Positions 17,857-34,018 of a DNA stretch of 64,000 nucleotides are shown piece by piece. The stretch lies in the NCBI GenBank assembly GCA_017542245.1, contig JAFXXN010000003.1, forward strand, positions 30,643-94,642, given 5' to 3'. The first letter of the stretch is position 1. Each line of letters begins with the position of its first letter. The notes under the pieces are model-generated. The model did no database searches, was not told the origin of the DNA, and saw only the letters and a list, made by a program, of their open reading frames with translations. The position numbers and the translations under genes were made by a program. The stretch is from Lachnospiraceae bacterium. GTDB lineage: Bacteria > Bacillota > Clostridia > Lachnospirales > Lachnospiraceae.

Positions 17857-17886
17857 AAAACGGGCAGGTAAAATCTGCCCGTTTTT
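17857..17886 (+). terminator. Intrinsic terminator after degV
   Basis: AAAACGGGCAG pairs with CTGCCCGTTTTT around a short loop, 25 bp after the stop. The stem is GC-rich and followed by Ts on both strands. Confidence 0.85.
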
Positions 17887-17990: not shown

Positions 17991-18671
17991 TTACTTTATA
18001 ATTTCATATTCCTTATCTTGGATCAGGTTTACTATCTCATAGTTTTCTACTTCGGTCAGTATCTGTTCGTAAGTTTCCCACCAGTTTAGATATGCGGCAG
18101 ATACTGAGAAAAACAGTGATGTACGGTTCTTTTCACTGAGCCTGGGATATGCTTCAAGTGCTGCGTCATATGCGGTTTCATCATCAAAGAAATAGTAAAT
18201 CAAAGGACTTGCCTTCCATGCATCCAGCTTTCCTTCCTCCGTAAAACCTGTCAGGACATAATACTGTCTCGCCTTGCCACAATCCTTCCAGCCGAAACCC
18301 ATACCGGTACCTGTATACTTCAATACGATGCGTTCATTCTCTGTAGTTTTTCCGACCACATCTGCTTCGGCTATCAGTTCCCCCGGATCCTCTTCAGTCC
18401 CGTTTCTTCTCTCGGGTCTTTCCTGATCAGAACTGTCCTCATCTTTTGAACCGGTGGATGAATCGTTTGAAGAATCTTTGTTTGTGTCGGAAGTATCTGA
18501 CTTCTCATCTGTTTTATTCTCTGTATTATCCTGTGCTTTACCATTATCATCATTCTTCACGGTATTGTCCTCGGAAGAACCTGATGATGTACCGCTATCT
18601 TTCCCGCATGAGGAAAGGCAGAACACTAAAGTCAGTGCAAGGATTAAAAATACTGATATCTTTTTTCTCAT
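17991..18671 (-). CDS. Predicted lipoprotein with Ser/Asp-rich linker and RPER motif
   Basis: The 226-residue protein has a lipoprotein signal with lipobox LSSC (Cys22), a low-complexity Ser/Asp/Asn/Lys linker to about residue 85, a short QERPERRNGTEEDPGE segment and a C-terminal domain of about 125 residues with several aromatic residues (YYVLTGFTEEGKLDAWK). I do not recognise the family. It shares lipobox, linker type and RPER motif with the lipoprotein at 22480-23751, suggesting common descent. It is the last of five exported-protein genes and lies 74 bp after the previous one. Confidence 0.7.
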   Translation of the reverse strand: MRKKISVFLILALTLVFCLSSCGKDSGTSSGSSEDNTVKNDDNGKAQDNTENKTDEKSDTSDTNKDSSNDSSTGSKDEDSSDQERPERRNGTEEDPGELIAEADVVGKTTENERIVLKYTGTGMGFGWKDCGKARQYYVLTGFTEEGKLDAWKASPLIYYFFDDETAYDAALEAYPRLSEKNRTSLFFSVSAAYLNWWETYEQILTEVENYEIVNLIQDKEYEIIK

Positions 18672-18745: not shown

Positions 18746-19807
18746 TTATCTCTCGATAAAGATGGTATAGAATTTGCCGCCGTTTGAAGCTTTCATGTAG
18801 TCAAGTTCTTCTCTGGTAAGTACCAGCGAATATGCTGAAATATCCCTGTCATTCACCCATGACATATCAAAGACTCCCTTATTCTTAAAGATGCTGTCTT
18901 CTTCAGTATAAGCTTTTTCACCGTCCTTAAGTCTTGAATAGTAGAAATATTTCATCTCTTCTTCTGAACCTACATATATCAAACGTTCCGTATTATTTTG
19001 GAATATAAATGTATTTTCATCAATCTGCAGATGTTCAAATATTTCATAATTAACCCGGTTACCGGTAGATTCATCAAAAGTCTCCGAGTACATAGCAACA
19101 CCATTGCTGTCAGGATAATAGTAGCAGTCTATTACATATGAGCCTGGATGCGAATTCCAGTCATCATCAAGATAACTGCCGTCAAAAGAAGCCCTGAAGT
19201 GACCTGCTTCAATTATTTCAACCTTTGCATTCTTACCTTCGCTAAACATCCCTACCATGGTCTGAAGTGTAGAACTCATTGTTGCCTGATCCTGATTTGT
19301 ATCAAAACTTGAAACATACGCCTTTGTAATCGAGTTAAACGGGGTGAAGAATCCAAGCGAAACAGTTTTCATATCTTCTGTTACATAGGTGGTCCCTTCT
19401 TTTACACGCTTGTTATATTCTTCAACATATTTTTGAGCTGCACGATCAAACAAATCTATAAGCTTATCCGAACGTTTATTGACTCCGCTGTATGATAGTG
19501 ATTCTAAACTCTCCCAACCTGCCAAAAGGAACTCATAATCCCCTTTTGACGTATCAACAAATTTGCCAATATCATCATATTCCGGATCATTTTCCTTTAT
19601 AAAGTTTAAATATGCATCCCATTTATCAATATCTGCTTTAGAAAACGATCCGTCAGCATTTTTCCCGGGTACCGAAGGGACCTCGGGTGCATTTTCGCCG
19701 TAAATTGTCTTTAAGACATCTTTTGAACCCGCAGCATATGCAAATGTTCCGGAAGCCAGCGAAATGATCAGGCACAAACCTATAGCAGAAAAAATATATT
19801 TTCTCAT
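18746..19807 (-). CDS. Secreted protein of unknown function (353 aa)
   Basis: A Sec signal peptide (MRKYIFSAIGLCLIISLASG, cleavage likely after AYA near residue 26) precedes a soluble mainly extracellular domain. The N-terminal part contains FSKADIDKWDAYLNFIKEND, which resembles a segment near the start of the next gene upstream (TPAEVDEYILEYLKKNN). The C-terminal half looks beta-rich (HFRASFDGSYLDDDWNSHPG). No enzymatic motif is seen and I do not recognise a family. It lies 18 bp after the upstream gene, with GGGAG before the start. Confidence 0.65.
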   Translation of the reverse strand: MRKYIFSAIGLCLIISLASGTFAYAAGSKDVLKTIYGENAPEVPSVPGKNADGSFSKADIDKWDAYLNFIKENDPEYDDIGKFVDTSKGDYEFLLAGWESLESLSYSGVNKRSDKLIDLFDRAAQKYVEEYNKRVKEGTTYVTEDMKTVSLGFFTPFNSITKAYVSSFDTNQDQATMSSTLQTMVGMFSEGKNAKVEIIEAGHFRASFDGSYLDDDWNSHPGSYVIDCYYYPDSNGVAMYSETFDESTGNRVNYEIFEHLQIDENTFIFQNNTERLIYVGSEEEMKYFYYSRLKDGEKAYTEEDSIFKNKGVFDMSWVNDRDISAYSLVLTREELDYMKASNGGKFYTIFIER

Positions 19808-19825: not shown

Positions 19826-21298
19826 TCATCTAAAGTTAACATATATCGGGATATTTCCCGGATCCAACGGTGCCCAAATATTTCTGTCCCAGAAAGTAAC
19901 AACATCCTTTGTCCCGTCATCGACAGTGGTCGGTCCAAATATCGGTCCGACTGCAAATTCCGCATTTCCCTTATCCTGAACTATTGTAAGACTCTCATTG
20001 TCTTTACTCTCAACATGATAAGCCGCATCTACGATTACATACCCGACTACATCATCGGGATTGCTTCCGTCTCCGTTTAAGAATCCTGTAGCAGTGCTTA
20101 TTGTACAAGCTTTATCTGACTTTATGGCTTTAGTATCTTCAAATTCATCAAGATTTAATTCAGCTACAACTCTTTCCGTAGTTGCCACAGACATTCCGAA
20201 CGGAAGAAGATCTGCTACTATATGGAGCTTCAGATCAGTACAGCACAAATACCTTTCATCATCTATCATACCACTCTGATCACAGTTATAAATCTTATCT
20301 CCGTTTATATACATACTGTCGCAATTGTAATACCAGTTTTCTTTAAAAGGACCGATCTTTCTGTTCCATATAAGGTTTGAAAAGCCCACAAGAAATCCAG
20401 ATACTTTTATTGATGCCGATCCCTCGTAAATACCTGACGGATTTCCGATACCTCTGAAATCACTGTATGTCCTTGCAAGATTTATCGATACAGTCCAGCC
20501 TTGAGTATTGTCTTTAACCCCCATAAAAGTATAACTTCTCAATATTGTTTTATTTATGGTAAGAGCCCAGCCGCCGGTTGGAAACTGATCTGCAAGATAT
20601 TCATTTAGTTCGTCATAAAACCTGTCCAAAGTTCTTATGGCATTTACTCCGTCAATCCTTACCTTCCAACGGTCAAGATCATTAAGATAACCCTCGTACG
20701 CTGTTTCGGCAAGACTTTCGGCATATGTTATTGCTTGATAAACCGTAATATTTTCTTTTTCTGAATTTTCAAGAACATCTGTGATCAGAAACTCTGCAGC
20801 CTCGTAAGGATCGTCAAATCTTTTTAGCGATTCTTTCCACTGTTCCTTGTCCTTAAACCTCCAGTATCCTTTCATCATCTTCTCTCCCGCATCTACCAGA
20901 ACCGAAGAATAAAGACTGTCTCCTACTACACCATCAATTCTTTCTAATACCGAGTCAATACCCTCATCATCGGAATAATCCAGATTAAGATAAGCATCAT
21001 AAGCTTTTTGGCATGCAATAACCTCTTCAAGCTTAAGATTATTTTTCTTTAAATATTCCAGAATGTATTCGTCAACTTCTGCCGGAGTAAGCTTCCCTTT
21101 CCATTTTAGAGAGCCTTTAAATTTCATTCCCCCTATATCTGCATACGCCGGAAGTCCTTTTTTCTTGGACCTTACATGTATCCTCTCATAATCTATTCCT
21201 TCAAGTTTCCCTTCTTGGGCTGCGGATGAATTGCTCCATGTAAATGCAAACACAAGGAGAAGAGCCGCAAGAAAAGTAATACTAATTTTCTTTATCAT
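19826..21298 (-). CDS. Secreted protein of unknown function (490 aa)
   Basis: A signal peptide (MIKKISITFLAALLLVFAFT) is followed by an alpha-rich region to about residue 230 and a probably beta-rich C-terminal half. The start at 21296-21298 has GAGG upstream; a GTG four codons earlier is less likely. No catalytic motif stands out. The spacing of 24 bp to the upstream lipoprotein gene and 18 bp to the next gene points to one operon. Its N-terminal DEYILEYLKKNNLKLEE region resembles the neighbouring secreted protein, so the two may be partners or paralogues. Confidence 0.65.
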   Translation of the reverse strand: MIKKISITFLAALLLVFAFTWSNSSAAQEGKLEGIDYERIHVRSKKKGLPAYADIGGMKFKGSLKWKGKLTPAEVDEYILEYLKKNNLKLEEVIACQKAYDAYLNLDYSDDEGIDSVLERIDGVVGDSLYSSVLVDAGEKMMKGYWRFKDKEQWKESLKRFDDPYEAAEFLITDVLENSEKENITVYQAITYAESLAETAYEGYLNDLDRWKVRIDGVNAIRTLDRFYDELNEYLADQFPTGGWALTINKTILRSYTFMGVKDNTQGWTVSINLARTYSDFRGIGNPSGIYEGSASIKVSGFLVGFSNLIWNRKIGPFKENWYYNCDSMYINGDKIYNCDQSGMIDDERYLCCTDLKLHIVADLLPFGMSVATTERVVAELNLDEFEDTKAIKSDKACTISTATGFLNGDGSNPDDVVGYVIVDAAYHVESKDNESLTIVQDKGNAEFAVGPIFGPTTVDDGTKDVVTFWDRNIWAPLDPGNIPIYVNFR

Positions 21299-21322
21299 AA
21301 TCACCCTCACCTTTCTGCCGCA

Positions 21323-22429
21323 TCAAACAGCTGTTTCCATTTTTTTAAGCATATCGCTGTAATGTTCGGAAACTCCGGCTTTTTTTGCTTTTTCAAGATA
21401 ATCCTTTGCTTTAGCAGTATCTTTCGTTCCGTATGCTATTACCGAAGCAAACAGATTTATATCTCCGTTCATATCATCAAGCAGAAGCCCGTTATTTACA
21501 TAAAATGCAGCTTTCTCAACATCGCCTGCCGCCAGATTCACATATGCTGCAAAGCTATAAGAATCAGTAACAAAAGGCGCTGTCAGAACAACCTTTTCCA
21601 CAGTTTCCGATGCTCCCCCGAAATTTTCCTGTTCAATATACCACATAGTTGCCAGCATATGATATTCACTGCTGAATCCGTTCTTTGAACGTTTTCCCTT
21701 TACAGGAACATTTTTACATAATTCATAGAGTTTATTTTCATATTGAACAAGCATATCATATATGGTTTTCAGTTCATCCGCACTAAGCCCTTTAAGCATC
21801 TCTGTATCAGGAACCATTGTCTTCGACAACGGGTTTTCTGCGCCGTATTCTTTAAGCGTATCAGCCTGACCTTTATCTGTCTTTTCGACAGATATTGCTT
21901 CCATATAATAGGGTACGGGAGTAGTCAGACTGATCCCATATATCTCGTCCCAGTTGCATATCAGACCATCTGACGATACTGTAACTCCTTTTTCTGAAAG
22001 GAGCAGTCCTACTGCATATCTTAACGAAGATACCGACCCTTCGGCAAATGTAAAACCGTAAACTGCCGGAATCATTGCACCGATTTTTAAATAGTCTACA
22101 CCTGTCTTATACATTTTATTGACTTCAGCATCAAAACCTTCAAAGCCCTTTCCCAGATCAAGGACATTACTCTTAAGGGTATCTATGGTATTGACAAAAT
22201 CATCCGATGATACTTCTGTCAAAGCCTTGCCTCCAAAAAGATCATACTTTTCAGTATTATTGGAATCGGAACCGTCCTGTTTAACGGAATCGTTAACTGA
22301 ACTATTCTGATTTCCGTCTGCTTCAGTCCCCTGATCAGGGGTTTTATCTGTATTTTCTTTTTTCAAGCATGCAGTAAAGAGCAGCAATGATAATAAAATC
22401 AGTAAAATCGCGAATACTCTTTTCTTCAA
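21323..22429 (-). CDS. Predicted lipoprotein with TPR-like C-terminal region
   Basis: The likely start is a TTG at 22427-22429, which has GGGAGG seven bases upstream; an ATG six codons earlier overlaps that site. The protein (368 aa) has lipobox FTAC (Cys21), an Asn/Asp/Ser-rich linker and then an alpha-helical domain. The last 110 residues look like tetratricopeptide repeats (FAAYVNLAAGDVEKAAFYVN, then AKAKDYLEKAKKAG). TPRs mediate protein contacts, so it may be the scaffold of this exported-protein set. The function is unknown. Confidence 0.65.
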   Translation of the reverse strand: MKKRVFAILLILLSLLLFTACLKKENTDKTPDQGTEADGNQNSSVNDSVKQDGSDSNNTEKYDLFGGKALTEVSSDDFVNTIDTLKSNVLDLGKGFEGFDAEVNKMYKTGVDYLKIGAMIPAVYGFTFAEGSVSSLRYAVGLLLSEKGVTVSSDGLICNWDEIYGISLTTPVPYYMEAISVEKTDKGQADTLKEYGAENPLSKTMVPDTEMLKGLSADELKTIYDMLVQYENKLYELCKNVPVKGKRSKNGFSSEYHMLATMWYIEQENFGGASETVEKVVLTAPFVTDSYSFAAYVNLAAGDVEKAAFYVNNGLLLDDMNGDINLFASVIAYGTKDTAKAKDYLEKAKKAGVSEHYSDMLKKMETAV

Positions 22430-22479
22430 TTCGGCACCTCCCATCATAACAGGATCTTTATCTCCCTTTATGATTTTTA

Positions 22480-23751
22480 TTATCCTTTATAGTTTCCAAG
22501 ACCTTCCGGATTTGCATCGTATTTAACTACCTTGAACAGTTCCTTCTCCTCATCATTCTCTTTTTCAACGATTTTAAACATTACACCTGTTGAAGGATCG
22601 TATGCAAATAAGTGCTTTGTCCAGAGCGAATCGTCCTCACAAACAGCACACTCTACTCCGGCTATGTTCTCTGTTCCTGTCTTCACAAGAGATGTCGATA
22701 TAGAAAATCTCCAGTTTGCTCCGCCAAAAGTCTTACCTTCGTTAAAGTCAAGTGACATCTGTCCCCAGGCAGAAAGACTTCCGTTATCACCCATTCCTTC
22801 AATATCGTACCAGTTACTGAGCAGATTTTCCATATCACTTGCTGAAATAGAACTATCTTTACTGAATTTCGTCCCATCATATGAACCTGCAGAATATTTA
22901 TCGTAACCGCCATCAGAATTTGCTATATAGGCATATGCCCAACCGCTATCAGACGAATCCTTGTATTTCATTCCCTGGATATAGTTCCCGTCTTTACGGC
23001 CCAATGTCTCAAAAGCGTAGTCAAATTCTATCTCGATAAGGAAATTCTCCGGTAAAATGTCAAGTGCACTTTTTGCAGGTATAATATCAGGCATGCTAGC
23101 TTCCTGCTGCTTTATATATTCCTGGCTGTAGCACTCAGGTGCATGTGTCATCCAGATAGTCATTGAAATACTGTCCGAACTGCCATCCGAATCACAATAT
23201 ACGATGATTCCAAGCTTCTTACTTCCCGCACGTTTGAAATATGTTTCGCCTAAAAGCGCGCTGTCTCTCTGGAAACCGTATCCGTCTATAAGCTGTTTAT
23301 CCAAAGATGCAAGCAGATCGGCTTTCTTTGTCTTTGCCCCCATCACTTCCCATTGATCGCCGTATATACTCCACTCAGTATACGGCTCATATTTTACCGA
23401 ATCAAAATCACAAAGACTTATCTCATCAGGTCCACCGATTTCGGAAAGGTATGCCGCAATTTTCTTTTCCATTGAATTTCTGTTCATTCCTTCATTTCTT
23501 TCCGGTCTGTCCTGTGTGCCGCCGTTATCTCCGCTATCCGAAGTACTTGTTCCCGATTGGCTATCGTCTTTTTTTGACGAATCCGAGCCGTTTGACCCGC
23601 TATCATTTGAAGATGAATTGCCGCTCTGATTTCCCCCGGAATTTGATGTATTATTACCGCTTCCCGATGAAGAATCTTTCTCTCCCGAACCACATGCAGT
23701 AAGTGCAAATGCCAAAATCACTACCACAATAATGTTTAAATACTTTCTCAT
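22480..23751 (-). CDS. Predicted lipoprotein with RPER motif (423 aa)
   Basis: Lipobox LTAC (Cys20) is followed by a Ser/Gly/Asn/Asp-rich linker of about 55 residues and TQDRPERNEGMNRN, the same motif type as in the lipoprotein at 17991. The remainder has an N-terminal domain (about 95-215) and a C-terminal beta-rich part that may bind a ligand (GANWRFSISTSLVKTGTENI). I do not recognise the family. It is the first gene of the five-gene exported cluster; a GGAGG precedes the start and the leader has a small GC hairpin. Confidence 0.65.
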   Translation of the reverse strand: MRKYLNIIVVVILAFALTACGSGEKDSSSGSGNNTSNSGGNQSGNSSSNDSGSNGSDSSKKDDSQSGTSTSDSGDNGGTQDRPERNEGMNRNSMEKKIAAYLSEIGGPDEISLCDFDSVKYEPYTEWSIYGDQWEVMGAKTKKADLLASLDKQLIDGYGFQRDSALLGETYFKRAGSKKLGIIVYCDSDGSSDSISMTIWMTHAPECYSQEYIKQQEASMPDIIPAKSALDILPENFLIEIEFDYAFETLGRKDGNYIQGMKYKDSSDSGWAYAYIANSDGGYDKYSAGSYDGTKFSKDSSISASDMENLLSNWYDIEGMGDNGSLSAWGQMSLDFNEGKTFGGANWRFSISTSLVKTGTENIAGVECAVCEDDSLWTKHLFAYDPSTGVMFKIVEKENDEEKELFKVVKYDANPEGLGNYKG

Positions 23752-23845
23752 AGTCCTACCTCCGTTTTCAAAAATTTTTACTGCCGTTTCTGCGCTACGG
23801 CTATAAATTACTAATTATAAATTATACTTAAAGGCAATAAAAAAT

Positions 23846-23878
23846 AAATAGGACCCGGTAAAAATCCAAGTCCTATTT
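23846..23878 (-). terminator. Intrinsic terminator after the beta-helix/LuxR gene
   Basis: AAATAGGAC and GTCCTATTT form the stem, followed on the minus strand by ATTTTTTATT. It separates the buk operon from the exported-protein cluster. Confidence 0.7.
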
Positions 23879-23944
23879 TAGTCCTATAATACCCTATAGT
23901 TCTATGTCCGTGCCTATATAGTTTTTTCTCATCAAGAAATGTCA

Positions 23945-25825
23945 TCACCCCTGGCAGGCATCCACCATTTTAAGAAGTCCTTCCTTATTCTTTACACCAA
24001 GTTTTGAAAAAATATTAGATATATGGTTCTTAACAGTTGACTCCGATATGAACAACGCTTCACTTATCTGGGTACGAGTCTTTCCGGAAACATATTCCCG
24101 CAGAACCTCAGTCTCACGCTCTGTAAGCGATCTTTCCCTGGCAAGTTCTTCAATTTTTCTTTCGGTAAGTTCTTTTGCTTCATCCTTATCTGCATCAGCT
24201 TGCTCTAAGGTCATTTGATCATTTTCTTCCTCAGTACCGATATCTTTAGGTTCAATAATCTGCTCCGATTTATTAAAGGACAACTGTCCGTATATCCCAA
24301 TATTTTCTCTTTCTCTCCTGTTTTTTACTGAACGGACGACAAAGAAAACGATTCCGGCAAGTACAACTGCACATACCGCACAAAGTATAATTACCGCATT
24401 CTGCCTGTCTGTATCCGATCCTTTTTTCTCCTTTTCAAGATCCGGTATCTCATTAATCCCCGGATATAATCCAGGATTCTTTCCAAAATAATAGCCGTTT
24501 GCTACTCCGTCTAATACTTCCTTCGGGATAATCGAGCCTTTTCTTTCCGAATTTATTACATTATAGTTCTCGTCATCTTTAAGGTTTCTTGTAACCTTAG
24601 AATCTATTATCCTACAGGCAATAAAATCTATCTTTCCATTCCTTCCTTCCTTTGAATCAGCGTTTTCCAGCATAATCGGATGAAAAATAAGATGCTCTTC
24701 ATCCTCGGAAGTATTGTTTTCCAATGTACAGAAACTTAACTCCACAATACCGGTCGGAACTCCAATCCCTATCTGGTCAGCAGGGCCTACCCATACAGCC
24801 CCTTCTTCCTTTGCCTTGTTTCCGGAAATCAAACAATTTGTAATATATATAGGAAAACTTTCATCACTGTATAATGCCATTCCACCGCCAAAATCATCCG
24901 CGGTATTATTCAATACTTTACAGTTGTCCATTGTAAGCTTTGAGGCTGTAACCAATATGCCACCTCCACAAGGAGCACTGTTTCCTTCTATCAGACAATT
25001 CTTTATAACAGCATCCGATTTAGCTAATGAAATTCCGCCTCCACCGGTTTTAAAGCTATTCTTTTCTTTAAAGCTTACCCTGATATTATTCTTTACAACA
25101 ACATTATCAAGCTTCCCGTTTATACCTCCGAGCATTACAATACCGGTATAAGCATAATTTCCGCTAAAGGAACAATCTGTCATTTCCAACAGTGTATTTT
25201 TTCCATTACACCAAAATACGCCTTTTTCGCATATATTTCCGGTAAATGTACAAGCTTTCAGGCTCACATTTGCTCTGGTACCAATATCTTCATTTCCATC
25301 GGTATATTGCAGATATATCCCCGCACCATACTTTGTACAATAGTTCTTCACGGTACAGTTCTGAACAGCAAGTTGAACAAAACCTTTTACAAAAAGACAT
25401 CCTTTATCGGTCCTGTCACCGTGAAAAGCATCAAATGATGCCGCTTCCTCCGGTCTTCCCTCCGGGCAGGTATAACATCCGTCAAAAATAATATTCTCAA
25501 ACGAAACCGTGATAAGTTCACTCTCTACCTCTGATCCTTCCACATGAAAAATACCTTTTTTCAAGATTGAACCATCCGGTTTTCCTATAAATTTTACGCT
25601 CTGTTTAATTTCAAGGTAGATATCTTTTTCATCAAACTCGATATCTCCCACATATATTACGTCTTTTTTATTTGCCAGAGCATTTGCAAGCTCCATTCTG
25701 GATGTAATATATGTTTCATTGTCACCCTGTGAAGCGGCTATGATTCCGTCGGGTGGAATTATAAACAGCGTCACAAGCAATAGTACTGTAAATACTAAAA
25801 CTATGAACGACAACTTTTTATTCAT
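23945..25825 (-). CDS. Transmembrane regulator: extracellular beta-helix plus cytoplasmic LuxR helix-turn-helix
   Basis: The 626-residue protein begins with a signal anchor or signal peptide (MNKKLSFIVLVFTVLLLVTL). An extracytoplasmic right-handed beta-helix-like region (about 90-400) shows repeated short strands and Asn ladders (ENIIFDG, VQNCTVKNYC, LKACTFTGN, IKNCLIEGNSAPCGGGILV, ITNCLISGNKA). A single membrane helix (about 475-497) leads to an acidic linker and a C-terminal LuxR/GerE helix-turn-helix (about 563-626: SLTERETEVLREYVSGKTR, SESTVKNHISNIFSKLGV). It appears to be a one-component membrane-bound transcription factor that could sense a surface polysaccharide. Its ATG overlaps the pta stop by four bases, so it is translated with pta. 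The DNA target and ligand are unknown. Confidence 0.8.
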   Translation of the reverse strand: MNKKLSFIVLVFTVLLLVTLFIIPPDGIIAASQGDNETYITSRMELANALANKKDVIYVGDIEFDEKDIYLEIKQSVKFIGKPDGSILKKGIFHVEGSEVESELITVSFENIIFDGCYTCPEGRPEEAASFDAFHGDRTDKGCLFVKGFVQLAVQNCTVKNYCTKYGAGIYLQYTDGNEDIGTRANVSLKACTFTGNICEKGVFWCNGKNTLLEMTDCSFSGNYAYTGIVMLGGINGKLDNVVVKNNIRVSFKEKNSFKTGGGGISLAKSDAVIKNCLIEGNSAPCGGGILVTASKLTMDNCKVLNNTADDFGGGMALYSDESFPIYITNCLISGNKAKEEGAVWVGPADQIGIGVPTGIVELSFCTLENNTSEDEEHLIFHPIMLENADSKEGRNGKIDFIACRIIDSKVTRNLKDDENYNVINSERKGSIIPKEVLDGVANGYYFGKNPGLYPGINEIPDLEKEKKGSDTDRQNAVIILCAVCAVVLAGIVFFVVRSVKNRRERENIGIYGQLSFNKSEQIIEPKDIGTEEENDQMTLEQADADKDEAKELTERKIEELARERSLTERETEVLREYVSGKTRTQISEALFISESTVKNHISNIFSKLGVKNKEGLLKMVDACQG

Positions 25826-26823
25826 TTAGCCCCCTGAGCCTGAACAGCAGTAAATGCAACAGTATTAATAATATCCTCTACAGAACATCCTCGTGATAGA
25901 TCATTACACGGTTTAGCAAGTCCCTGAAGAACTGCGAAGCACTCTGCACCACCGATACGCTGAGTTATTTTATATCCGATATTACCTGCCTGAAGATCAG
26001 GGAATATAAGTACATTAGCATAGCCTGCAACAGGGCTTCCCTTCGCCTTTGATGCTCCGATCTCCGGTACAAGTGCTGCATCAAACTGCATCTCTCCGTC
26101 AAGGCACAGATCCGGTGCCAGTTCATGGGCAATACGTACTGCCTCCTGAACCTTTGAAACCAATTCATGCTTAGCGCTTCCCTTAGTTGAAAATGATAAA
26201 AATGCCACCTTAGGTTCTTCGATACCACAGAGAGTCTTCGCCGTATCCGCTGCCGAAACACCTATCTGAGCCAGTTCCTCTGCCGTGGGATTAGGCATTA
26301 CAACACAATCAGCGTAAACCAAAAGTCCGTTATGACCCAGCTTTTTATTCGGGCAGTCCATGAGAAAACTTGATGAAACCACCTTGATCCCGGGCTTTGT
26401 CTTTATAAGCTGCAATGCAGGACGAAGCATATCCCCGGTTGTATGAACGGCACCGGAAACAAGACCGTCTGCATCCCCCATCTTAACCATCATAATACCA
26501 TAATACATAACATCCTGAACAAGCTTTTCTGCATCCTCTTCAGTTACACCCTTGGTTTTTCGAAGCTCATAAAGCTCTTTTGCATAATCCTTCGCCTTAG
26601 GACTGTCAATCGGATCAATGATTGTAATCCCAGAAAGATCAACATTTTTCTTAGCTGCTTCCTCTGCTATTTTTGCAGAATTTCCCAAGAGGACAGGATT
26701 TGCAAGTCCGTCCGTCTTTATGGTATAAGCTGCCTGTATTGTACGAGGCTCATCACCTTCGGGAAGAACAATTGTTTTTACATCTGCCCTTGCTTTTTTT
26801 CTGATATCATCGACCATACTCAT
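25822..26823 (-). CDS. pta: Phosphate acetyltransferase (phosphotransacylase)
   Basis: The 333-residue protein matches compact Pta enzymes: IVLPEGDEPRTIQAAY near the start, DGLVSGAVHTTGDMLRPALQ, then PNPTAEELAQIGVSAADTAK and GSPVAGYANVLIFPDLQAGN. It interconverts acetyl-CoA and acetyl phosphate. It resembles Pta more than phosphotransbutyrylase, yet it sits directly after a butyrate kinase, so it may work on more than acetyl groups. The ATG at 26821-26823 is chosen because GGGGG lies upstream. The buk stop TAG overlaps this ribosome site, and the 3' end overlaps the LuxR-type gene. Confidence 0.92.
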   Translation of the reverse strand: MSMVDDIRKKARADVKTIVLPEGDEPRTIQAAYTIKTDGLANPVLLGNSAKIAEEAAKKNVDLSGITIIDPIDSPKAKDYAKELYELRKTKGVTEEDAEKLVQDVMYYGIMMVKMGDADGLVSGAVHTTGDMLRPALQLIKTKPGIKVVSSSFLMDCPNKKLGHNGLLVYADCVVMPNPTAEELAQIGVSAADTAKTLCGIEEPKVAFLSFSTKGSAKHELVSKVQEAVRIAHELAPDLCLDGEMQFDAALVPEIGASKAKGSPVAGYANVLIFPDLQAGNIGYKITQRIGGAECFAVLQGLAKPCNDLSRGCSVEDIINTVAFTAVQAQGAK

Positions 26824-26835
26824 AATACGCACCCC

Positions 26836-27951
26836 CTAATCTAAAAAATCAAATCCGTTCCATACATTCTTGCCGGAATATTTTAAAGCCTTTACCTCTC
26901 CCCTTAAAACTTTCAGAGTAGCATATGCCAAAGCTTCCTGTTCCATCTCACCGGGATAAACACTTATAGGTGCTATAAATCCGCAGCGTTTTTCTATTCC
27001 TTCCTTAATATCATCAAATCTCATCAGTCCTCCGGTAAGAAGTATTCCGTCAACTTTTCCGCAAAGAACTGTACTCATTTCTCCGATCATCTTGCATATC
27101 TGATATATCATCGTATTCCACACAAGACTTGCCTTTTTATCTCCTTCTTCCACAAGTCTGTGTATCTCATCGGAATCAGCCGTTCCAAAAAGACTTACAA
27201 ATCCTCCTGCCCTTGAGCAGAGCAGTTTAGCTTCTTTTATGGAATGCTGCTCAACATATTCGAGCATTGAAAGCACCGGAACACTTCCTATACGTGTAGG
27301 AGTATATGCTCCCTCACCGTCGGCTCCCATATTTCCGTCAACCATTTTTCCGTGATCATGAGCACTGACAGTTATCCCGCCATCAATATGTGCAACTATA
27401 AAGTTACAATCCTCATATTTTTTTCCAAGCTTTTCAGCGTGTGCTTCGGCAACAGCCTTCTGATTAAGTACATGGCTGTGAGATACCCTGTATACGCCCT
27501 TAATTCCGGTAAGCCTTGCGTAATCACAGTATTCGTCAACATTTGTAGGATTAAGCGTATATGCATTTCTTCCAAACTCGTTTGCGAACTTCCATGCAAG
27601 CATTACACCTAATTTGGCAGGATGTTCACTTCCTCCAACTGCTGCCACGGTATCGTCAAAAAGCTTCTCATCTATCTTTGTAACTCCTCCGGGCTGAGTA
27701 CATGCACTTCCTCCGCGTCCAACAAAAACATCGATTTCCGAAGGATCATATCCTTCCTCCTTCAGCATATCAAGAATAACCCCATATCTAAACGGCATCT
27801 GATCATTAACATGCGGATATTTCAATAATTCCGGAGCATCATGAAACAGACTCTTTTCAAACAGAGATGTTTCGTTCTCAAAAAGACTCACCTTCGTTGA
27901 AGTAGAGCCCGGATTAATTATCAAAAGTTTATATTTTTTTTCAGTGTTCAT
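26836..27951 (-). CDS. buk: Butyrate kinase
   Basis: This 371-residue acyl kinase has the butyrate kinase N-terminal signature LLIINPGSTSTKVSLFENE, VGRGG and the ASKHA phosphate motifs (VAHIDGGITVSAHDHGKMVD, then ILLTGGLMRFDD). It makes ATP and butyrate (or a branched acid) from the acyl phosphate. The start at 27949-27951 has GGAGG five bases upstream; a longer frame to 28008 would begin inside the promoter region. It is the first gene of buk-pta-LuxR and has a consensus promoter. Confidence 0.93.
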   Translation of the reverse strand: MNTEKKYKLLIINPGSTSTKVSLFENETSLFEKSLFHDAPELLKYPHVNDQMPFRYGVILDMLKEEGYDPSEIDVFVGRGGSACTQPGGVTKIDEKLFDDTVAAVGGSEHPAKLGVMLAWKFANEFGRNAYTLNPTNVDEYCDYARLTGIKGVYRVSHSHVLNQKAVAEAHAEKLGKKYEDCNFIVAHIDGGITVSAHDHGKMVDGNMGADGEGAYTPTRIGSVPVLSMLEYVEQHSIKEAKLLCSRAGGFVSLFGTADSDEIHRLVEEGDKKASLVWNTMIYQICKMIGEMSTVLCGKVDGILLTGGLMRFDDIKEGIEKRCGFIAPISVYPGEMEQEALAYATLKVLRGEVKALKYSGKNVWNGFDFLD

Positions 27952-27982
27952 TTTTTCCTCCGGTATTCTGCAGGGTATATTT

Positions 27983-27998
27983 ATATCCATATGGATAT
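27983..27998. promoter_or_regulatory. 16-bp perfect palindrome downstream of the buk transcription start
   Basis: ATATCCATATGGATAT is a perfect dyad, located about 10-26 bases after the expected start of transcription. Such a position suits a repressor operator. The LuxR-type protein of the same operon is one candidate binder; this is inference. Confidence 0.5.
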
Positions 27999-28014
27999 TC
28001 CCACACAATTTGTA

Positions 28015-29075: not shown

Positions 29076-30044
29076 TCAGCTAACGGTTACCGAACATGTA
29101 GCCGTAAAGTCACTTCCGACTTTTGCTGTAATAGTTGCTGCTCCTGCTTTCTTTCCTTTTACCTTGCCTTTGCTTGATACGGTAACCTTGCTCTTGTCAG
29201 AAGAACTCCATTTAACCTTTCCGTATGCAGTTCCGACAATATACTCTCCTGAAAGCCAGGAATCCTCATTAACATATTTCATCTTCAGCGAAAGCTTCTT
29301 AGTCTTACCTTTTTTGACTGTTGCATCTCCCAAAGAAACCGTAAGCTTGCTGTTAGGGATTTCTATAACCTGATAATAAACACCGGTTACACCTACAAAG
29401 TCTTCCTTAAGTCCCGTATATGATGAAAACTCTCCTGAGATACATATATAACTTTCTCCGCTGAGAACAAATGCACCAAGCCCTACATACTTATTGTTCG
29501 GATTAATCATGCTGGTATAATGACCGGTTACTGCTCCTGCTGTCTGAGCAACCCAGTCGTCTTTTTCACCATACCACTGGTTTACTCCGTTAACCATATT
29601 ACCATTATAGTTCCATGCAAGAACTTCTCCCCAGCTCTGAGTTCCGTTGTACTTAACAGTAAAGCAGCTCTTTCCGTTAGGACGGGTATGTTCCCAGTAA
29701 ATATCTGCTTCAGCTGCTCTTGTCTGAGCGATCATCTCAAGATCCGATGCCCATTTAATAGGAACATAGTCACTTTCTTTAAGAGGCTGGTTAGTAGCAG
29801 GATTTCTTACGCCTTCCTTACATGCTTCAAGCCTGATCTCATTTATCCTGTCTAAGGCAGCCTGTCTCTCATCTGTCTTAAAAATGCCTTTAAACAAGAC
29901 AAAGGTATTCCCTGAAGAAGGAGCGGATTCCGAGGTCTTTCGTGTCTTAGCCCACGATGACTGCGAAGGTGCTAATGCAATAATAATCCCTGCCACCATC
30001 AAAACTGCTGCGAAACTTAAAACATTCTTTAAATATTTCTTCAT
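29076..30044 (-). CDS. Secreted CAP-domain protein with C-terminal Ig-like (BIG2) domain
   Basis: A signal peptide (MKKYLKNVLSFAAVLMVAGI, with further hydrophobic residues) is followed by a CAP/SCP domain (about 58-210) with RINEIRLEAC, RAAEADIYWEHTRPNGKSC and the family motif GHYTSMINPNNKYVGLGAF. The C-terminal 90 residues are a bacterial Ig-like 2 domain (KVKWSSSDKSKVTVSSKGKV). CAP proteins in bacteria are secreted or surface-held, often of unknown role. An AAGGAG site precedes the start. The gene is divergent from the glycosidase-like gene at 30270. Confidence 0.88.
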   Translation of the reverse strand: MKKYLKNVLSFAAVLMVAGIIIALAPSQSSWAKTRKTSESAPSSGNTFVLFKGIFKTDERQAALDRINEIRLEACKEGVRNPATNQPLKESDYVPIKWASDLEMIAQTRAAEADIYWEHTRPNGKSCFTVKYNGTQSWGEVLAWNYNGNMVNGVNQWYGEKDDWVAQTAGAVTGHYTSMINPNNKYVGLGAFVLSGESYICISGEFSSYTGLKEDFVGVTGVYYQVIEIPNSKLTVSLGDATVKKGKTKKLSLKMKYVNEDSWLSGEYIVGTAYGKVKWSSSDKSKVTVSSKGKVKGKKAGAATITAKVGSDFTATCSVTVS

Positions 30045-32110: not shown

Positions 32111-34018
32111 TTATTCTGTAAATAGCGGCAATCCGGTCTCACTGTCTACTATGATATAAAGCCTCTCCTCTGAACCTGTGCTGAATACAACTTCTTCTGA
32201 TGTGCCATCTTCAAAGGAAAGTTTTGCGCGGAGTATACTTGTATTTTTATATCCGCTTTCAAAACTTAAATCAGATATAGAACCGTCACGGCAGTAAAAG
32301 CCGTCGGTCATAACAACCTGCTTTCCTTCCTCGTAAACATTCTTATCTGCATAAAAGGTATTTTCAGACATCTGCCTGTCGTTTATGTAAACATAGAGTT
32401 TGTTGTCTTCAAATTTCAGCTTTACATCAGCAAATGCACCGTTCCCGGAAAAATCACCATTACTGAGCGCCATCGTCCAATAATACGGCTGATCTTTTTC
32501 TAAACCATCCTGATTTTTATGAATATCGGAATTACTGTATTTAGAACTCTTCTGTTCCCATTCTGACCGTAAATCCGTTGCCAAAGAAGGTTTATCGACT
32601 GAACATCCTTCCGGAAAACTCGGTTTATCCTCATCTGTTCTGTAATAATCGGCAACGTTTCCGGTAAACTTTGCACTCTTTAAAGAACTGCATCCTCCAA
32701 ATGCATTTTTCCCGATACTGCACAGGCTTTTTCCGAATGTGACAGAAGTTATCTCTTCGCACTTATAAAATGCCCTCACGCCGATACTGTAAACACTGTC
32801 AGGAATTATAATATCTCCTTTAATGCCTTTACATCCCGAAAAAGCATCCTGATTTATATTTTTAAGTGTATCCGTAAACTCTGAAAGACCTGTAAACCCT
32901 TCACATCCGTTAAAAGAAGACTTTCCTATGGATGTAAGCGATTTTGGTAAATTCAATGTGCCGGTAAAGGCAGTATACGAAAATGCATCGTCTCCAATAA
33001 TCTTAACTGTATCAGGTATTACCAGGATTCCGGTCATATTACTGCACCCGCTGAATGTCTTCTGACACACTGCTTTCAGTTCTGAAGGAAGTTTCAGCCC
33101 TGTAAATCCCTTATCCCCGTAAAATGCATTTTCGCCGATATATTCAACACTGTCGGGTATTACCAGATCCCCGGTAAGATTACTGCAATAGTCAAATGCA
33201 TAATCATCTATGCATTTAAGACCCTCCGGAAGGATCAACTGTCCGTCTGACCCACAGTCCCTGAAAGCCATTCCGCATATATGAGTAACTCCCGGGAATA
33301 TCTCTATATCACCCTTAAAGGATTTGCATTGATTAAAACAGCTGGAAGGTATAGAAGTTAATCCTTTCGACAGCTTTAATTTCCCATCAAATCCACACTC
33401 GGCAAACGCATATGCCCCGATAGATTTTACTGAATCGGGTATAATAAGGTCTCCCGTAAGCTTTTTTCCTCCACAAAATGCAGATTTTCCTATACTTTCA
33501 ATACCATCCGGAAGTTCGAGGCTTCCTTTTAAGCCCTCCATTTCCGAAAATGTTTCTTCGCCTATATTTTTTAATGAGCGTGAAAGTTTTATCCCCGAAA
33601 AACCTTTACATCGTATAAAAGCATAATTTCCGACCTTTTCTACTGAATCCGGCAGCCTAAGTTCTCCGGTAAGCCCTTCACAGCCATAAAATGCAAATTC
33701 ACCGATTTCACGAAGGCTCTCCGGAAGGATCAGTTCTCCGGTAAGTGCACCGTTAGAATAGAATGCTTCTGCTGCAATAGATGTGATACCGTCTGATAAT
33801 ACAAGTTCCTTTATCGGATAATCACTCCACATAAAGCGGTTTTCAGTAACCATTTCCCCGCTTCCTGTTATCGTAAGTATCTTTTTAGAACTGTCATACT
33901 CCCACTGCATGTTTTCACCGCAGCTTCCCGACTTTGGCAGATTCTTCTCTTTCCCTTTACAGCCAAATAAACCAAACATTACCACAACCCCCAACAAAAT
34001 AAACAGCCTTTTCTTCAT
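32111..34018 (-). CDS. BspA-type leucine-rich-repeat surface lipoprotein
   Basis: The 635-residue protein has lipobox GLFGC (Cys20), a short N-terminal domain, then about 15 tandem LRR_5 repeats (about 90-460) of the form GELILPESLREIGEFAFYGC. A C-terminal domain of about 150 residues looks beta-rich and may be a ligand or lectin-type module. BspA-type proteins act at the cell surface in adhesion or scaffolding. It lies 51 bp after the ABC substrate-binding gene on the same strand, so it may be the last gene of that operon. Repeat-rich DNA makes length variation likely between strains. Confidence 0.88.
   Translation of the reverse strand: MKKRLFILLGVVVMFGLFGCKGKEKNLPKSGSCGENMQWEYDSSKKILTITGSGEMVTENRFMWSDYPIKELVLSDGITSIAAEAFYSNGALTGELILPESLREIGEFAFYGCEGLTGELRLPDSVEKVGNYAFIRCKGFSGIKLSRSLKNIGEETFSEMEGLKGSLELPDGIESIGKSAFCGGKKLTGDLIIPDSVKSIGAYAFAECGFDGKLKLSKGLTSIPSSCFNQCKSFKGDIEIFPGVTHICGMAFRDCGSDGQLILPEGLKCIDDYAFDYCSNLTGDLVIPDSVEYIGENAFYGDKGFTGLKLPSELKAVCQKTFSGCSNMTGILVIPDTVKIIGDDAFSYTAFTGTLNLPKSLTSIGKSSFNGCEGFTGLSEFTDTLKNINQDAFSGCKGIKGDIIIPDSVYSIGVRAFYKCEEITSVTFGKSLCSIGKNAFGGCSSLKSAKFTGNVADYYRTDEDKPSFPEGCSVDKPSLATDLRSEWEQKSSKYSNSDIHKNQDGLEKDQPYYWTMALSNGDFSGNGAFADVKLKFEDNKLYVYINDRQMSENTFYADKNVYEEGKQVVMTDGFYCRDGSISDLSFESGYKNTSILRAKLSFEDGTSEEVVFSTGSEERLYIIVDSETGLPLFTE

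Follow-up and report, generated by a model that had tools for sequence, protein, structure and literature searches.

A predicted single-pass membrane receptor joining a beta-helix ectodomain to a LuxR-type DNA-binding domain, and a candidate operator that accompanies it in two genera of Lachnospiraceae

Can a single protein of a Lachnospiraceae bacterium sense outside the cell and switch genes inside it directly, and if it can, which genes would it switch? The question is raised by a gene (23945..25825, minus strand, ATG start, 626 amino acids) in a stretch of 64,000 nucleotides, the whole of which we analysed and call the window. The first-pass annotation had read one open reading frame here as an extracellular beta-helix joined to a LuxR-type helix-turn-helix, and family matches over cut-off agree with that prediction: Pfam Beta_helix covers residues 184-337 (E 5e-12, 46.2 bits versus a cut-off of 25.9), and Pfam GerE covers residues 566-620 (23966..24130, minus strand; E 7e-19, 67.6 bits versus 23.5). 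We compared the protein with 11 full-length orthologues, five from other species of its genus (G004, G006, G007, G017 and G020) and six from a second Lachnospiraceae genus (G096, G399, G419, G420, G421 and G422), which with its own sequence makes a set of 12. GerE was matched in all 12 and Beta_helix in eight, own included (Pfam, E<=0.01). In every member a hydropathy scan found an N-terminal hydrophobic segment as well as a strong one near residues 478-496 with basic residues behind it; three of the 12 rows have a second, overlapping peak for one segment. The strong segment is the one membrane helix that had been placed between the two parts (24338..24394, minus strand). The N-terminal segment had been called a signal anchor; a cleaved signal peptide fits it better (about residues 1-32, 25730..25825, minus strand; hydropathy peak at residues 5-23), because an A-x-A-like motif ends the segment in most orthologues.

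Residues 38-458 (24452..25714, minus strand) would form the extracellular domain, for which the family match predicts a right-handed parallel beta-helix. It is 419-421 residues long in 12/12 orthologues. One plausible solved relative, Rhombotarget A (9cdu), is a weak match (E 0.0023, 66 of 421 positions), and this likeness of the repeat region implies no DNA-binding part. Against solved structures, the helix-turn-helix profile matched 7x1k best and GerE (1fse) second, at E 4e-15. Among the 10 families matched by any of the 12 orthologues (Pfam, E<=0.01) there was no pectate lyase or GH28 family, and the same scan gave the receptor protein no match to a polysaccharide lyase or glycosidase family. 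A receiver or kinase domain likewise had no Pfam match at E<=0.01 in any of the 12, so the receptor lacks the N-terminal receiver domain by which a NarL/FixJ-type response regulator is recognised in Pfam. DNA-binding domain and membrane region stand in one chain in all 12 (the former by Pfam, the membrane region by hydropathy only). Our best reading is that the protein is a single-pass transmembrane one-component regulator, with an observed domain order and a predicted topology; the domain order and the missing receiver and kinase matches support the earlier proposal of a membrane-bound regulator of this kind.

Two genes fused by a sequencing error could give the same appearance. We exclude such an artefact because the same full-length order recurs in 11 orthologues from two Lachnospiraceae genera (five other species of the genus and 6/6 genomes of the second), and a search for the order in other genomes, which the first-pass annotation had suggested, thus found it kept in 12/12 orthologues. 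The distribution of the receptor is narrow. The receptor query matched 21/24 genomes of the genus, most through the GerE domain only, and the full-length protein is present in 6/24, own included. In a family-wide draw it was found in 3/397 genomes at E<=1e-10, namely its own and two of the second genus. A widespread ectodomain was considered and rejected on these 3/397 genomes and on 1/392, own only, at E<=1e-12 in a sample of the order that evidently included none of the other receptor carriers. The next-best helix-turn-helix domains in a draw of 150 family genomes scored about half the bits (66 versus 131-137). All compared genomes are draft assemblies, and the window's own is listed as 8.6% contaminated. 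Three relatives are Lachnospiraceae metagenome assemblies, of which one comes from goat omasum and two bear RUG names, which we take to denote rumen genomes.

Conservation is uneven along the protein. Among the 12 orthologues, mean pairwise identity is 57-66% across sub-regions of the ectodomain and 57-68% when the helix-turn-helix is included, and both the membrane helix (about 23%, hydrophobic throughout) and the linker behind it (about 18%) drift. For ectodomain and helix-turn-helix, dN is well below dS in 6/7 pairs, where dS is unsaturated; it is saturated throughout in the own/G006 pair and for the helix-turn-helix in the G419/G422 pair. Ectodomain dN/dS is about 0.08-0.15 among the six pairs with unsaturated sites, and the linker is more relaxed. 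Since the ectodomain tree splits by genus (support 82/84), inheritance of the receptor looks mainly vertical.

Which DNA, then, would the helix-turn-helix bind? Control of the neighbouring exported genes had been proposed, with the region before 23751 as a place to look, and a conserved operator-like element in that region makes such control probable. The element (23847..23887, minus strand) is new in this analysis, and we regard it as a candidate receptor operator. Its 41-bp consensus is ATAGGACT-AAA-ATAGGACTT-N(11-12)-RGTCCTATT, drawn from an alignment of 14 sequences, 12 from the receptor loci and two further copies. The direct half-site R1 (23887-23880 in the window) reads ATAGGACT, or AGGGGACT in three genomes of the second genus, and is more changed in G421 and G020b. 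The second half-site, R2, reads ATAGGACTT and starts 11 bp on from R1 (12 in G421); about 20 bp beyond it stands the inverted R2', RGTCCTATT, and R2 and R2' together form an inverted repeat (23877-23847). A -10 box, TATAAT (23821..23826, minus strand), follows the inverted repeat after 20 nt. Across the alignment the box lies 20-21 nt after the element and has 5 or 6 of 6 matches in 12/14 copies; it is poor in G006 and G017 (4 and 3 of 6). The centre of the inverted repeat is 35-36.5 nt before the -10 box, which corresponds to about -47 to -48 for a standard start; the repeat reaches the -35 region with its end, and the hexamers there are weak in most copies.

In 12/12 loci the element precedes a lipoprotein gene close to the receptor, across two lipoprotein families, LpA (eight loci) and LpB (four), and behind upstream contexts of several kinds. 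The window holds one occurrence of its 19-base core with up to three mismatches, versus 0.03 expected. A 17-base core with at most one mismatch is found in 6/6 receptor-bearing genomes of the genus, once in each and at the receptor locus, versus 1/18 receptor-less genomes, the exception being G014, a genome 66% complete; a reversed control pattern matched 2/24. This co-occurrence across the 24 genomes has a one-sided Fisher p of 5e-5, uncorrected for kinship. In the second genus, five of six genomes have the core within one mismatch (control 0/6), and the sixth, G421, has a variant with more changes. With a profile built from the 14 elements and scored on up to 150 candidates per genome, eight sites in the genus exceeded 50 bits and no other exceeded 31; because the strong sites are all training sequences, only the absence elsewhere is informative.

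Specificity lies in the direct half-site plus R2. The inverted repeat taken alone is unspecific: it matches 13/397 family genomes, 10 of them outside the two receptor genera, its reversed control matches more of the 397 (about 50), and within the genus, too, more genomes match the control than match the pattern. Nine of the 10 sites outside lack a GGAC within 14 bp upstream, whichever strand is read; the tenth, in G254, carries one 13 bp upstream. It is also conceivable that the element serves a different DNA-binding protein, for instance a soluble response regulator of the GerE type, and that receptor and target merely travel together. The own genome does encode further GerE-domain proteins (nine matches, seven over cut-off, the receptor among them), yet GerE-type proteins are matched in 15/18 receptor-less genomes while 17/18 are without the element, and we judge this account quite improbable.

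Several further sequences resemble parts of the element. Another TAGGACT copy, GGAGGTAGGACTATG (23744-23758, minus strand), overlaps the ribosome-binding region and start of LpB, and some orthologues have weaker versions of it. An extra half-site, TTTAGGAC or TTTAGGACT, lies between element and -10 box in G004, G007 and G020 (L035 9102-9131, L036 2409-2438 and L037 6090-6119). The own genome has a second inverted repeat of 30 bits without a direct half-site (L092, L120; G000:C61:10035-10090), which precedes a 75-aa gene resembling a ribbon-helix-helix protein. In four loci of the second genus (L041, L042, L050 and L051) the element overlaps the end of an upstream open frame with the common C-terminus TYAAKK....

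The putative target in the window is an operon of five genes on the minus strand. Five exported proteins had been described as adjoining the receptor, and N-termini read from the sequence agree. The first gene is LpB (22480..23751; lipobox LTAC), and gaps of 32, 12, 18 and 74 nt separate it and the four that follow: a lipoprotein with weak TPR similarity (21323..22447), an exported protein with a GIDY motif (19826..21310; no Pfam match over cut-off), another exported protein (18746..19807; no Pfam match) and a lipoprotein that is probably the last (17991..18671; lipobox LSSC). A terminator-like hairpin follows (17857..17885, minus strand), one of 12 found in the region versus 8.6 (sd 3.5) in shuffles. 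LpB lies behind the receptor in 4/12 loci (own, G006, G017 and G004), and LpA lies ahead of it in 8/12 (G007, G020 and the six of the second genus). An exported-protein gene separates LpA from the receptor in G007 (L036 3539-4636, which matches DUF6273) and in G020 (L037 7220-8311); the LpA frame of G020 is broken near its start. We rejected the idea that LpA and LpB are one family, as their profiles share only the signal peptide and a low-complexity linker.

Other neighbours at the receptor loci were compared with window genes only, and a few of them were scanned. They include a CitMHS/ArsB-type transporter adjoining the receptor in G017, an ABC transporter after it in G007 and a HAD hydrolase before LpA in G096. 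Family 5 glycosidase genes lie 5-8 kb from the receptor in G017 (L034 2791-3822) and G006 (L033 16336-17376), and a frame similar to a family 5 glycosidase occurs in G004. The window itself encodes two further surface proteins on the minus strand, a lipoprotein with BspA-type leucine-rich repeats (32111-34018) and an exported protein with a CAP domain and Big_2 (29076-30044).

On its other side the receptor gene adjoins pta (25822..26832, minus strand; PTA_PTB E 4e-124) and, beyond it, the butyrate kinase gene (26836..28008, minus strand). As the first-pass annotation had noted, the receptor start and the pta stop overlap; they share 4 bp (ATGA), and this overlap had been taken to tie the regulator to butyrate and acetate metabolism. 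The tie does not hold up: pta is the upstream neighbour in this genome only, and neither pta nor buk stands beside the receptor at any of the 11 other loci, for which reason we rejected the receptor as a metabolic operon partner. The core of the element, moreover, occurs nowhere else in the window, and a regulator serving butyrate or acetate metabolism seems to us barely credible. The palindrome at 27983 that had been put forward as a target fares no better, since it contains no TAGGACT half-site and the single element core of the window lies elsewhere; it is a 16-bp sequence in the buk leader, ATATCCATATGGATAT (27983-27998), unrelated to the candidate operator. A sigma-70-like match (28043-28015) stands in front of buk, promoter-like matches in this region of the window being no more frequent than in shuffles. 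The receptor of the window would be carried on the transcript of buk and pta, whose only part would be to supply it.

A complete second copy of the element precedes another operon in G020 and G014. It begins with a homologue of the 21323..22447 lipoprotein gene (26% identity over 204 aa, E 6e-9) and continues with a GIDY-type protein and then a lipoprotein; the likeness of the latter to 17991..18671 probably comes mostly from low complexity. Related target genes are thus found with the element at an unlinked site as well. Strong homologues of the first gene of the second operon occur in 7/24 genomes of the genus (own, G004, G006, G017, G020, G014 and G010). G010 serves as a natural control: genus-wide genome searches found neither receptor nor element in it, and at its syntenic locus (L152) the whole block of receptor, element and LpB is absent while the downstream exported operon is kept. 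That locus starts with a 433-aa lipoprotein, also present in G017 and G004. The persistence of these downstream genes in G010, which has no element, means that they can be expressed otherwise. A weak element in G017 (L129, G017:C78:5915-5984; 20 bits, E 0.002), a direct repeat with no inverted arm, precedes an exported protein and is a possible extra target. The best reading of these sites is a very small regulon of exported proteins.

We considered whether the element acts in RNA, as an intrinsic terminator or attenuator at the border of two transcription units, with the receptor binding elsewhere. A stable hairpin was predicted in 6/6 folded elements (z -3.7 to -5.9), that of G096 folding best in a different pairing that uses R1. 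The inner, non-conserved positions of the arms also pair, with 33/48 Watson-Crick matches versus 20.2 (sd 2.6) for shuffled arms among 12 distinct sequences, uncorrected for kinship. Such compensatory changes go beyond what a plain DNA operator requires; mutation that perfects palindromes without selection could also yield arm pairing of this sort. The element in the window has a T-rich tail and a terminator score, several other copies have T-rich tails (including G419 and G422 of the second genus), and in the loci checked an open frame running the same way ends shortly before the element, G399 having no more than a stretch of 99 codons there. Against a role in RNA only, a terminator could do without an identical sequence behind unrelated upstream genes in two genera, without the third half-site 11 bp upstream and without a constant distance to a -10 box. 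Four of the six second-genus copies (G096, G399, G420 and G421) have no T-tract after the stem, and the element tracks the receptor across genomes. We therefore consider an RNA element with the receptor acting elsewhere unlikely. A terminator role as such, in addition to or instead of that of an operator, is likely, at least in the window, because the inverted repeat folds as a hairpin and its inner changes are compensatory.

The explanation that we favour, and think probable, is that a single-pass receptor binds the element through its helix-turn-helix and most likely activates the nearby lipoprotein promoter, within a very small regulon. The beta-helix outside the cell would bind an extracellular ligand, for which a sugar polymer is a guess, and the signal would cross the membrane by the single helix and reach the GerE-type helix-turn-helix at the inner face by way of a variable linker. 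There, perhaps as a dimer, the domain would bind three TAGGACT half-sites immediately before the -35 region of the lipoprotein promoter: a direct pair 11 bp apart and, about 20 bp beyond it, an inverted one. With these spacings the three half-sites lie roughly on one helix face. The position of the element fits an activator, because the half-sites share a helix face and the inverted repeat ends at a weak -35 region; repression is possible. The receptor would control the lipoprotein operon close to its gene, joined in at least one receptor-bearing genome by the second operon of related exported proteins. A separate receptor promoter, TTGAAA-17-TATAAT, appears to stand behind a terminator-like stem in G096, G399, G420 and G421, which makes a steady supply of receptor with switched expression of the lipoprotein plausible.

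As a variant of this explanation, the ligand could trigger cleavage of the receptor, releasing a soluble fragment of linker and helix-turn-helix that moves to promoters. The long, fast-changing linker would suit such regulated proteolysis, which would also serve the second target at its unlinked place, but in 12/12 loci a target lies near the receptor gene, as would suit a regulator held in the membrane. We give the cleavage variant a small but real chance.

How does the proposed membrane-held receptor compare with known systems? ToxR and CadC carry an N-terminal winged helix. The receptor differs from regulators of the ToxR, TcpP and CadC type in having its LuxR/GerE domain at the C-terminus and an N-terminal beta-helix outside. 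Transmembrane one-component regulators are widespread and numerous, and most are single-pass, according to the available part of one study; those of the ToxR, TcpP and CadC type resemble the receptor in joining a DNA-binding domain and a membrane region in one chain and in sensing outside the cell (PMC10269533). LuxR and GerE occur 0 times in that part of its main text. The nearest functional analogue would be SusR of Bacteroides, which, as described in the available part of its report, likewise has a sensor outside and a DNA-binding domain inside and activates genes for exported proteins (PMC3878776). The two differ in their DNA-binding domains, that of SusR having no significant similarity to known ones and that of the receptor being GerE, and in their sites: the sites predicted for SusR-like regulators are direct repeats spaced 67 or 77 bp, and the element, with half-sites at 11 and about 20 bp, has no direct repeat at such a spacing (PMC3878776).

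The DNA-binding domain itself resembles GerE of Bacillus sporulation (1fse), which is LuxR-type like the receptor (recognition region SEKTVRNHIS versus SESTVKNHIS) and, unlike it, is a 74-residue chain without a sensor domain. GerE sites carry a TRGG core; a GerE site consensus was not found in the literature searched. Among the next-best helix-turn-helix domains of the family draw we inspected two Lachnospiraceae proteins, L056 (314 aa) and L064 (486 aa). Both have a C-terminal LuxR domain on a membrane protein, as the receptor does, but they have many hydrophobic segments and no large ectodomain. A literature search for multi-pass LuxR membrane proteins gave nothing, and none of the literature searched described a beta-helix as the sensor of a LuxR-type regulator. 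The novelty is in the combination and the linked operator, the parts being known.

A bolder synthesis, which we offer tentatively and as rather unlikely in its entirety, is a Gram-positive counterpart of the SusR principle: the beta-helix receptor would read an extracellular polymer of the rumen and act without a relay on a nearly private promoter next to its own gene, and the element would be both an operator in DNA and, in RNA, a terminator hairpin that seals this promoter from read-through. More simply, one protein of a rumen bacterium appears to do both tasks, sensing outside the cell and directly switching genes inside it. To our knowledge, the site or the regulon is known for few membrane-bound one-component regulators. 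Here the sensor lies together with its candidate operator and target genes in a compact unit, and one genus offers natural pairs with and without it, so that how a membrane-held regulator finds its promoter becomes directly testable.
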